From Rhodoferax sp. (GTDB lineage: Bacteria > Pseudomonadota > Gammaproteobacteria > Burkholderiales > Burkholderiaceae_C), in contig SSFF01000011.1 of the NCBI GenBank assembly GCA_008015235.1, positions 1 through 64,000 of the forward strand: 64,000 nucleotides of DNA, written 5' to 3'. Below the pieces are notes generated by a model, which had not been told where the DNA came from, did no database searches, and saw only the letters and a program-made list of their open reading frames with translations. Position numbers and translations under genes: made by a program. Position 1 is the stretch's first letter; each line of letters begins with the position of its first letter. Below, one piece after another: positions 55,334-59,726 of the stretch.

Positions 55334-57571
55334 TCAGGCGGAAGGGGCCACGCCGCGCGAAGGGGCGTGGTAGGGAATACGCAGGATGAACTGGGTGCCG
55401 ACACCGGGGGTGCTGTGCAGCTCGATGCTGCCGCCCAGCACGCCGGTCACGGTGTTGTAGACGATGTTCAGCCCCAGGCCGCTGCCCCCTTGGCCCAGCT
55501 TGGTGGTGAAGAAGGGGTCGAAGGCGCGCCGACGCACTTCGTCGCGCATGCCGATGCCGTTGTCCTCGATGCGCAGTTCTATGGTCTGTTCGTCCAATTC
55601 ACTGGCTGAAATCTGGAGCAGGCCGCTGCTGCGTCCTTCGAATCCATGCAGCAGCGCGTTCTGCAGCAGGTTGGTCAGCACACGGCCCAGGGCGCCTGGA
55701 TAGCTGTCGAGCGCTTTCGGGAGCGCAATGGCGGTACCCACCTGGTAGGGGGTCGATTTCCAGGATGCACGCGACAGGCTCACCACGTCGTCGACCACCG
55801 AGCTGAGCACAAAGCTGCGCCGCTGTTCGCTGGCCTGGTCGACGGACAACTGCTTGAAGTGCTGCACCAGTTCGGCTGCGCTGGAGAGTCCGCGCAACAG
55901 GATGTCCACCCCCTGGTCCACATCCCGCAGGTAGGCATCAAAGGCCGACTTGCGCATGCTGCCGCTGGCCACCGCCTGGTGGATGTCCTGGGTGTGTTCC
56001 TGCAGTGTCGATGCCGTGACCAGGCAATTGCCAATGGGGGTGTTGAGTTCGTGCGCCACCCCGGCGACCAGCGAGCCCAGGGCTGCCAGCTTCTCGGCAC
56101 GTGCCAGGCCTTCCTGTGTCTGCTGCAGTGTCTGCATGGTGGTGCGCAGTTCACGGGTGCGTTCGTTGACACGGTTTTCCAGATCTTCGGCCAGCAGGTG
56201 CAAGTCCGCCTCGGCCTTGCGCTGCGCACTTAGGTCACGCGCCACGCCCAGGTAGCCCATCGACTCGCCTTCGGGCGTGCGCAAGGTGCTCAGGGCCAGG
56301 GACACCGGCACCCGCTTGCCGGCGCGCGTCATGTAGGTCCAGGCCTGCGGCTTGGTGCCCTGGGCCTGTGCCAGGTGGGCGAAAACGGCGAAACCTTCCA
56401 GCAAAGGTTCACTGGGCTGGCGCAGGGTGCGCGCCACGGTGCTGATCTCTTCGGCCACATGCCAGATGGCAGGCGAGTGCCCCAGGACCTCCTGGACGTC
56501 GTACCCAAGCATGCGTTCGGCGCCACGGTTGAAGACCGTTACGTTGCCATCGAGATCGGTGGCAATGATGGCTACCTCAGTGGCCGCATCGAGCACGGCC
56601 TGGAGCCGGTCGCGCATCGCAAGGGACTCCGCCTGGGAGCGCTCCAATGCCGATTGGATTTCCCGCGAGTGGGCCATTTCATCGAACAGTGCGCGGTTGC
56701 CGCGGCGCAGGCTCTGGGTCTGGCCGACCAGCAGCGCAATCAGTATGGCCATGATCGAGCCGCCGGCCCACACTGCCACCGCTTCGGGCGCCAGTCCGGC
56801 GGAGGACCAGCCCGCCTGGGGCCGCACGCGCAAAATCCACTGGGCGCCTGGAAGGTTCACAGGGACTGAACTTCCCGCCATGCCGGTCTCGGGCCATTGC
56901 CCCCAGATCAGTTCCCCACTTTCGGCAAACAGCGCCACCTCCAGCTGCTCGTTCTCGCCCATGCCGGCAGAGGTCATGAAGCGGTCCAGATCGGCGACCA
57001 CCGAAAGAACGCCCCAGTAGGTGTCGGCTACGAATACGGGGGTACGCTGGATCACGGCCAGGCCGCCCTGCACCAGCCGTACCGGCGCAAACAGCAGTGG
57101 CGCCTTTTGTTTTTTTGCCTGCTGCACCTGCTGCCACTGGGCGGGTACGTTGCGGTAGTCCAGATTGAACACCCGCTCGTTGCCGGCAAGGGGGTACACG
57201 TAACGGGCCACGTCATCGGGTGCCGCCACCACACTGCGAATGAAGGGCACAAGGGTCAGGCTGCGTTCGATCAGGCGCTCGAAGCGTTCGCGCGACAGGG
57301 TGCCGTCGACATGGATCAGGGTCGCCAGCCCGGCGGTGGGGCTGAATGCCCGTGCCGCCTCGGCCTGCAGGCGGTCCCGCATGGCGCGGGCCTGCAGCTC
57401 CAGTTGCTGCTGCTGGGTGACCACGCTGCGGGCATGGTGGGCGTTCTGCAGCACGCTTCCCCCCAGCAGGCTCAGGCCCAGGCAGACCCATACCGGCCAG
57501 AGGACGGCAATGTGGTGCAGCAGGCCCGTTCGTGCCTGTTCTGGCACTTCGGAGTGGGCGTTGGGAGTCAT
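55334..57571 (-). CDS. CHASE-PAS sensor histidine kinase
   Basis: N-terminal TM plus CHASE-like domain, PAS (AERMLGYDVQEVLG), H-box GVAHELNTPIGNCL, GQGGSGLGLNIVYNTVTG. Confidence 0.88.
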   Translation of the reverse strand: MTPNAHSEVPEQARTGLLHHIAVLWPVWVCLGLSLLGGSVLQNAHHARSVVTQQQQLELQARAMRDRLQAEAARAFSPTAGLATLIHVDGTLSRERFERLIERSLTLVPFIRSVVAAPDDVARYVYPLAGNERVFNLDYRNVPAQWQQVQQAKKQKAPLLFAPVRLVQGGLAVIQRTPVFVADTYWGVLSVVADLDRFMTSAGMGENEQLEVALFAESGELIWGQWPETGMAGSSVPVNLPGAQWILRVRPQAGWSSAGLAPEAVAVWAGGSIMAILIALLVGQTQSLRRGNRALFDEMAHSREIQSALERSQAESLAMRDRLQAVLDAATEVAIIATDLDGNVTVFNRGAERMLGYDVQEVLGHSPAIWHVAEEISTVARTLRQPSEPLLEGFAVFAHLAQAQGTKPQAWTYMTRAGKRVPVSLALSTLRTPEGESMGYLGVARDLSAQRKAEADLHLLAEDLENRVNERTRELRTTMQTLQQTQEGLARAEKLAALGSLVAGVAHELNTPIGNCLVTASTLQEHTQDIHQAVASGSMRKSAFDAYLRDVDQGVDILLRGLSSAAELVQHFKQLSVDQASEQRRSFVLSSVVDDVVSLSRASWKSTPYQVGTAIALPKALDSYPGALGRVLTNLLQNALLHGFEGRSSGLLQISASELDEQTIELRIEDNGIGMRDEVRRRAFDPFFTTKLGQGGSGLGLNIVYNTVTGVLGGSIELHSTPGVGTQFILRIPYHAPSRGVAPSA

Positions 57572-57685
57572 GGTGTGGCTGGCAACGGTGCAGTGGGCAG
57601 ACCATAGCACAGCGGGGGAGACACGCAAGCCCGCCCGTCAGGAATTCTCCAGTATTGCGGAGCGGTGTAAGCGAGGGGCAGAAGA

Positions 57686-57705
57686 TGGTGTCCCCGACAG
57701 GAATC
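57686..57705. repeat. att-like direct repeat, distal copy
   Basis: TGGTGTCCCCGACAGGAATC, 19/20 identical to the 3' end of tRNA-Arg at 59652-59671. Confidence 0.88.
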
Positions 57706-57817
57706 TGACATCTTCTTGAAACCCGCATGAATGCTAGGTGTCTAGCTCCAGCCGTTTGAAGATACCGTCATAAATACCGTCAACCACAGCGGTTGGCGGT
57801 GTTCGAAGTTTAGCGTG

Positions 57818-58795
57818 CTACTCAGCCTTCCACTTGGGCTTTGCTAAACGTGGCCCGAATACGTGTCGGTGAAAAGTGGCGATGCCCTTGCCGACTTGTA
57901 GCGGCACCGCTTCATGTACTGGGGATACATCGGTGTACTTCGCAATCATTTCCTCATGGCCGATGCTCTGGGCAAGCACGGCCTCGTAGGCAAAGCGACA
58001 GATTTGCGCGTTTATCAATTCAACCCAAGCCTCGTCGGGGACGTCGCTGTGTAGTAGTCCGTGTCGATTGAAGGCATCTTTGTATTCCGTTGCGCCGATA
58101 AGCGCTAACGTTGGACTGACAGGGAAAACGAGAAACACAGGGCCACCGTCTGGATTAATGGTGTACGGTAGTTGCTTGTCAAAAGGTACCGACGGGTCGA
58201 ACCACAGGACCGGGTTGTCACTGGTCAGGAATGGACGCGCGGTTGTATTGTGAACAGCCGCAAACCCGAGCATCGAGTAAAGCTTTCCCATTCCCTGCAA
58301 TATCGCCACCATCGCATGGATGCTCATATGCGGGTCAATGCTCACACGGACCTGGTTTGGCAAATCTTCAAGGCCCTGTGGTGGCGCTGGGAGTTTGCCG
58401 TTTGCAAGCATGACTTGCATCGTGTCCTTGACTGTCTGCGCCAGAGTAGCTTCCACAGCGTCTCGTGCTGCCGGGACACGAGCACGCTGCAATGACATGA
58501 ACTCGAAAATGTTCTGCAGCCTATCGTTTACATCCTCGCGTTTGTGAAGTTTCGCTACGGTCTCGGGCCAGTCCTGTTCAATGGTCGAGAAGAATGCCTC
58601 CAAAGTGTTGTTGTCCTGACTGCCTTCCGGAGTTGGCTGCGAGTAGTAGTAGCCACGGAATTGGGTGGCGTCAGGAACTTGACGGAGCGGTTCACGCGGC
58701 CCGTCTTTGCGATACACGAGGAGACGCCCTTCCGGGTCACAGAAGGCTTTGAGATAGGCCTTGGGGACGAAGTGATGACGTTTTGTTTGCTGCAT
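57818..58795 (-). CDS. DUF4238-like protein (island cargo)
   Basis: 325 aa beginning MQQTKRHHFVPKAYLKAFCDPEGRLLVYRKDG, with NTTARPFLTSDNPVLWFDPS; matches DUF4238 as I recall it. Confidence 0.8.
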   Translation of the reverse strand: MQQTKRHHFVPKAYLKAFCDPEGRLLVYRKDGPREPLRQVPDATQFRGYYYSQPTPEGSQDNNTLEAFFSTIEQDWPETVAKLHKREDVNDRLQNIFEFMSLQRARVPAARDAVEATLAQTVKDTMQVMLANGKLPAPPQGLEDLPNQVRVSIDPHMSIHAMVAILQGMGKLYSMLGFAAVHNTTARPFLTSDNPVLWFDPSVPFDKQLPYTINPDGGPVFLVFPVSPTLALIGATEYKDAFNRHGLLHSDVPDEAWVELINAQICRFAYEAVLAQSIGHEEMIAKYTDVSPVHEAVPLQVGKGIATFHRHVFGPRLAKPKWKAE

Positions 58796-58839
58796 TGCGA
58801 GTAAGGAGCGTAGCCAGATTAACCGTATCTCGGGCGTTC

Positions 58840-59345
58840 CTATAAGCCTAAGGTTGGTTTGTAGTCTTTGAAGTTGGGCGTGCCCAATCTGGGTTCATCA
58901 ACCATCGCGGTGCTTTTTCTCCGGGGGCAAGATACCGAATAAGTTCCATCGCACTTTCGGGGATGACGAATTGGTCCGTGAAAAAGAGCGTTGTCAGCGG
59001 GGTCTGCTCGTGTAGGTTTCCTGCCATTCGAGCCTCGTCGTGTCGTTTGAAGTGAGTAAAGGAGTCTCGAAGATTCTTGAGCATCGAAAAATCGGTCATA
59101 GACCTCTTTTTCTGCAGGAGAGGGAACCCCCATGATGTCAGGAACAATTCGTTTAACTTTTTCGTCCAGTGGAGTAAATCGTACGACGTCCTCGGGCGAG
59201 AGGGTGTCTTTTCCCTTCTTTGCTTTGACTTTCAGTGGGCCAGTTGCATTGTCAATAATGCAGCGAATGCAGAATGCCTCTATTGCGGCACAAGCACCGG
59301 AGACGGTGCTAATCATTTCCTCAAAGAAGTCGAATAGCGGGCCAC
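58840..59345 (-). pseudogene. Frameshifted, 5'-truncated hypothetical gene
   Basis: Coding-like FDFFEEMISTVSGACAAIEAFCIRCIIDNATGPLKVKAKKGKDTLSPEDVVRFTPLDEKVKRIVPDIMGVPSPAEKEVYDRF continues best in another frame as MLKNLRDSFTHFKRHDEARMAGNLHEQTPLTTLFFTDQFVIPESAMELIRYL; likely indel near the A5 run at 59087-59091. Confidence 0.6.
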
Positions 59346-59464
59346 TAGTCCATCCGCCAGTGCTTGCCCGTGTCCACAAGCAGATACATGCCCAAGCCAT
59401 CTGTATATTTTTTAGGCTTACCGCCCGTCTTTAGGTTCTCCACACCGGTCTTGCTCAATCCCAT
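59345..59464 (-). pseudogene. Truncated N-terminus of a tyrosine-type (P4-like) integrase
   Basis: MGLSKTGVENLKTGGKPKKYTDGLGMYLLVDTGKHWRMD, typical integrase N-terminal arm-binding domain opening, ends abruptly. Confidence 0.72.
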
Positions 59465-59531
59465 GCTCGCGCTCCTTTGTTCAAATTTGGCGGTATTGCC
59501 AAATACGTATAGCGTCGATGCCGTCAAAAAG

Positions 59532-59550
59532 TACCGCCAAGTTGGCGGTA
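59532..59550. promoter_or_regulatory. Palindrome upstream of integrase remnant
   Basis: TACCGCCAA-g-TTGGCGGTA perfect 9-bp inverted repeat. Confidence 0.6.
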
Positions 59551-59651
59551 TGTAGTGCGACTGGCTGAGACCTTGCGAGACGTAAAAAAAACCGCAAGCC
59601 TAATAGGTGTGCGGGTTTCTAAGCATTCTTGATGCTGTTTGAGACCATATT

Positions 59652-59726
59652 TGGTGCCCCCGACAGGAATCGAACCTGTATCTGCCCCTTAGGAGGGGGC
59701 CGTTCTATCCATTGAACTACGGAGAC
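59652..59726 (-). tRNA. tRNA-Arg (CCT)
   Basis: Reverse complement GTCTCCGTAGTTCAATGGATAGAAC GGCCCCCTCCTAAGGGGC AGATACAGGTTCGATTCCTGTCGGGGGCACCA folds as a cloverleaf; anticodon CCT; CCA encoded. Confidence 0.95.

Follow-up and report, generated by a model that had tools for sequence, protein, structure and literature searches.

The 64,000-nucleotide stretch of Rhodoferax sp. DNA analysed here (the window) very probably carries a decayed, integrase-less element of 2.0 kb at a tRNA-Arg(CCT) gene, which is CIME-like, retains attL and attR, and encodes a probable single-gene phage defence. The term "CIME-like" is used rather than CIME because an origin from a conjugative element was not shown. 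The original prediction, a tRNA element left after a large internal deletion, is borne out by an integrase family matching its stub at six loci, the layout of an intact element in a relative, predicted arm-type sites at both ends, and a deletion junction that could be placed. The element illustrates cleanly the decay of mobile DNA housed in a tRNA gene, its ends and a probable defence gene having outlasted the integrase and a neighbouring gene. It is also an ordinary decayed mobile element, which leaves the understanding of such elements unchanged.

Target tRNA and attachment repeats

The integration target, tRNA-Arg(CCT), was placed by ARAGORN at 59652–59726 on the minus strand, in agreement with the tRNA 3′ end predicted at 59652–59671, and in many relatives it has the same VWA/CoxE-like gene as its neighbour. 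The tRNA-proximal attachment repeat, 20 bp within the tRNA gene at its 3′ end (59652–59671, minus strand; TGGTGCCCCCGACAGGAATC), matches the distal attachment repeat (57686–57705, minus strand; TGGTGTCCCCGACAGGAATC) at 19 of 20 positions, exactly as had been written before, and the similarity is confined to these 20 bp. No further site with up to four mismatches to the repeat was found in the 64-kb window. In the 3.65-Mb genome, a near-consensus pattern allowing up to three mismatches occurs at three places, the tRNA and the distal copy being the only ones within two mismatches; the sequence of the third, which has three mismatches, recurs in other genomes and probably belongs to another tRNA gene. 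Att cores of nearly the same sequence as the 20-bp repeat have been described for Variovorax prophages at tRNA-Arg(CCT) (PMC9658991). The distal copy pairs with the 5′ half of the tRNA one base better than the tRNA-side copy does. Acceptor-stem pairing was rejected as a means of identifying the original att copy because the same wobble is present in congeners without this integrase.

The G+C content between the repeats is 0.48–0.56, compared with 0.64 for the 64-kb window. Just 3′ of the tRNA there is a terminator-like inverted repeat (59590–59619, minus strand) that is common to other elements at the site; a terminator-like element of the AAACCCGCA...TGCGGTTT type recurs in the tRNA–integrase intervals of relatives.

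Integrase stub, HEPN-like remnant and the deletion between them

The integrase N-terminal stub predicted next to the tRNA is real. It spans 59345–59464 on the minus strand and contains 39 codons followed by a stop at the deletion junction; it was recognized by tblastn, with 43–55% identity to the N-terminal parts of integrases encoded next to this tRNA at other loci, and by PF13356, with an E-value of 0.0012 that is weaker than the curated cut-off. Full integrases matching the stub are found downstream of tRNA-Arg(CCT) at six Comamonadaceae-type loci (L077, L107, L116, L117, L124 and L125). The distance from the integrase start to the tRNA end is 165–179 bp in all six relatives and 187 bp in the window. 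As these six were found among 67 loci with a detected tRNA-Arg(CCT), a set that includes some duplicates of one genome, the site is usually free of this integrase. The element in the window has no integrase catalytic domain, while its att sites and putative arm sites are present. The genome itself holds other tyrosine recombinases, and no cognate full-length integrase with an arm domain of the same type (PF13356) was found in it. The sole match in the genome past the threshold for Arm-DNA-bind_3 is a partial one, at G000:C5:187331-187447, in a 120-aa open frame on the same contig and outside the window.

The middle gene of the element, described in the original prediction as frameshifted, is a remnant of a HEPN-like gene (58848–59344, minus strand). 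Its two frames match one intact 264-aa protein from another genus of the family (G133) with 46–49% identity, the first frame covering residues 105–191 and the second residues 178–261. These matches indicate that the gene has lost approximately its first 105 residues, a feature that adds to the earlier description, and that it is frameshifted near 59088. The intact relatives of the gene encode 264 and 255 aa, and the remnant also matches phrog_17113 (E = 1.4e-6). An RX4H motif is conserved in the remnant and its relatives as RDSFTH, RDSVTH or RDRIVH, the first being that of the remnant, which suggests a HEPN fold; the Pfam family HEPN_RiboL-PSP was matched in one relative only, at an E-value of 0.014, below the cut-off. 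No relative of the protein was found among viral contigs. Weak matches of one relative to HIV reverse transcriptase structures concerned an unrelated part of the sequence and were set aside.

The two truncated genes meet at an approximate junction at 59337–59350 (minus strand), as delimited by homology. The similarity to integrases stops at ...GKHWRMD and that to the HEPN-like proteins begins a few codons further on, with ...GPLFDFF; in the comparison with the L152 protein it starts at about residue 105 of that protein. A single deletion, joining integrase codon ~39 to HEPN-like codon ~107, explains both truncations.

Predicted arm-type sites at both ends

A position weight matrix (PWM) was built from 15 sites in the tRNA–integrase intervals of six relatives, where the best repeated 9-mer is ATACCGTCA, and was applied blind, the window having been left out of its construction. 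It predicted tRNA-proximal arm-type sites (59486–59554) at 59486–59499 and 59541–59554, with a weaker one at 59515–59528, and two direct copies at the distal end (57759–57784, minus strand), accompanied by a third, weaker one at 57793–57802. Among all positions of the 64 kb on both strands, the distal sites at 57771 and 57759 rank first and third, and the tRNA-proximal sites at 59541 and 59486 rank sixth and seventh. Five sites within the element have 14 bits or more, where 300 shuffles gave 0.03 on average; the one at 58818, between genes, may be a chance match. The presence of two arm-type sites in the 100 bp adjoining the distal repeat, from which they are ~55–80 bp away, was reached by none of 2,000 shuffles of that 100 bp. 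This pattern of predicted sites is what arm-type sites flanking attP should look like once integrated, and their presence at both ends indicates that the two ends belong to one element.

At L077, L107, L116, L117, L124 and L125, a terminator-like AAACCCGC...GCGGGTTT sequence is followed by several ATACCGYCA arm-type sites, all within 180 bp of the tRNA. The core letters of the arm sites differ between elements, L124 having ATACCAACA. The tRNA-Arg(CCT) integrase family in Comamonadaceae is tied to a specific predicted arm-site motif, which could be used to find more remnants.

The locus in relatives and an intact element

In congeners, tRNA-Arg(CCT) adjoins the same VWA/CoxE-like gene. The conserved gene that comes next encodes an acyltransferase and precedes pyrC- and pyrB-like genes; it is separated from the tRNA by as little as 72 bp or as much as several kb, the content of which varies, and the interval is a hotspot. 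No DNA match to the element was found in 103 congeneric genomes. In the comparison for empty sites proposed in the original prediction, none of the sampled genomes shared the far flank, and neither an empty nor a full-length site with the same flanks was found among them. Nearest to an empty site are L047 and L054, where the acyltransferase gene lies within 72 bp of the tRNA with nothing inserted.

Between the distal repeat and the acyltransferase gene, the window has a gene for a histidine kinase with CHASE, PAS and HATPase domains (55334–57628), which was not found at that place in any sampled relative. Its presence there in the window only kept the relatives from providing a strict empty site or the gene order before integration. 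The kinase gene was considered as part of the element and rejected, given its host-like codon G+C and its location outside the distal repeat; it may be a further lineage-specific insertion in the hotspot, or may have locally replaced the pair of ABC transporter genes found there in relatives. At another locus, L045, a large primase-like gene separates tRNA-Arg(CCT) from a related integrase catalytic domain, which lies 8.2–8.7 kb downstream in the opposite orientation; this appears to be another hotspot element of reversed layout.

An intact element of 8.2 kb is present at tRNA-Arg(CCT) in Comamonadaceae bacterium D4_MAG_00044 (L164; G503:C14). Its integrase (404 aa; PF00589, PF13356 and PF22022) lies 179 bp from the tRNA and is followed by a PriCT-2/Toprim/DUF3987 protein gene and then by other small genes, an arrangement that is possibly that of a phage satellite or of a replicating island of small size. 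The attachment repeat is duplicated here as well, the tRNA end recurring with 19 of 20 matches 8,177 bp downstream, with a weaker arm-like site of 10.6 bits ~65 bp before it; past this distal repeat the G+C is at host level and ABC transporter genes are found. This element is therefore like that of the window in its tRNA, the location of its integrase near the tRNA, its 19/20 distal repeat and its distal arm-like site, and the N-terminus of its integrase is 43% identical to the stub. It is unlike it in being full-length, in carrying other cargo and in its arm motif (ATACCAACA instead of ATACCGYCA).

The retained DUF4238 gene

The DUF4238 gene that had been read as intact (57818–58795, minus strand) is indeed so: it encodes 325 aa, matching profile positions 1–278 of the 281 of PF14022 with an E-value of 1.3e-36. 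The PADLOC model DUF4238-Pers (PDLC03000) also matches it (E = 2.1e-6), covering only residues 3–128 of the 325. Its third-position G+C is 0.60, compared with 0.81–0.85 for the flanking genes, and a search of the element for sigma-70 promoters gave no match. DUF4238 is present in 5 of the 103 congeneric genomes; two of these genes (in G009 and G065) were considered and set aside, as they are distant and the regions around them contain neither a tRNA nor anything that matches the rest of the element's genes. No near relative of this version was found in 400 genomes of the family, and no DUF4238 relative in viral contigs and phage records. No solved structure of DUF4238 was found, and an AlphaFold model from one sequence was discarded (mean pLDDT 38).

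The protein is 32–33% identical over 97% to proteins of rhizobial plasmids. Of the closest plasmid relatives found, one lies beside SIR2 and UvrD-helicase genes and another beside HamA/Hachiman and restriction genes. In E. coli, strong resistance to T7 was conferred by a DUF4238 protein encoded in a hotspot of P2 prophages (PMC9122126). By analogy with the family, namely the published T7 resistance and the plasmid relatives beside defence genes, the retained gene would most likely encode a stand-alone anti-phage factor. The usefulness in defence that had been suggested for it is supported at the level of the family.

Proposed history and alternative explanations

In the history that we favour, a tyrosine integrase inserted an element at the tRNA-Arg(CCT) 3′ end, as the att repeats and arm-type sites show; the tRNA was rebuilt on one side and the 20-bp copy was left on the other. 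Judged from its one intact relative, the element would have had roughly the size of a phage satellite or small island. A deletion, shown by the two truncated homologies, then removed the region from integrase codon ~39 through the middle of the HEPN-like gene, the rest of which acquired a frameshift. What is left is a 2.0-kb decay product of the CIME type that keeps attL and attR together with the arm sites of both ends and has no integrase. As the catalytic domain is missing, the element would be unable to excise itself, and the remnant is most likely immobile at present, since no full-length integrase with this type of arm domain was found in its own genome. Excision or transfer in trans by an incoming element with the cognate tRNA-Arg(CCT) integrase, for which both att sites and both sets of arm sites are preserved, seems improbable; were it to occur, the remnant would be a minimal one-gene defence cassette and not a dead relic.

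The failure to find an empty site would fit a reading in which no element exists and the 20-bp repeat is a chance match or a partial tRNA-like sequence, which we regard as extremely unlikely given the naive chance of ~7e-6 that a 19/20 match arises somewhere in the 64 kb, both strands counted, the integrase stub at the right place and the arm-type sites beside the distal repeat. It is also unlikely that the distal repeat stems from an older, separate integration and that the stub, the HEPN-like remnant and the DUF4238 gene derive from more than one element. Such accretion has been described for CIMEs (PMC5704250), the att copies differ by one base, and the content of the tRNA–acyltransferase interval differs in nearly every congener; however, the genome contains just two att copies, with no internal third, and each end carries arm-type sites of one shared motif, at about the spacing of a single intact element.

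For the DUF4238 gene itself, retention by chance, as a frame free of selection or not expressed in a recently acquired junk element, is possible if somewhat doubtful. The gene next to it is broken, no promoter was matched, and a second copy of the gene that would permit a test for selection is lacking. Against this, its frame of 325 codons is intact and covers the Pfam model in full length, whereas the two other genes are broken, and defence activity is known in its family, although neither point proves selection.

Comparison with known systems

CIMEs are decayed ICEs or IMEs that have lost their integration and transfer genes and kept attL and attR (PMC5704250). The decayed element of the window resembles them in its location at a tRNA 3′ end, in the loss of its integrase, and in having kept its cargo and both att sites. 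It may differ in descent, which for CIMEs is from an ICE or IME, whereas its only intact relative seen looks more like a satellite or a small replicating island; the element of the window retains no genes for conjugation or mobilisation and no traces of any. Like the protein of the window, the P2-hotspot anti-phage protein (Rousset et al. 2022, PMC9122126) is a single DUF4238-domain protein on a mobile element, the two being distant by the PADLOC model. The Variovorax prophages PBL-E5_pp_1 and WDL1_pp_1 have the same tRNA, the att core TGGTGCCCTCGACAGGAATC and a tyrosine integrase in common with the window element, but are ~40 kb in size (PMC9658991).
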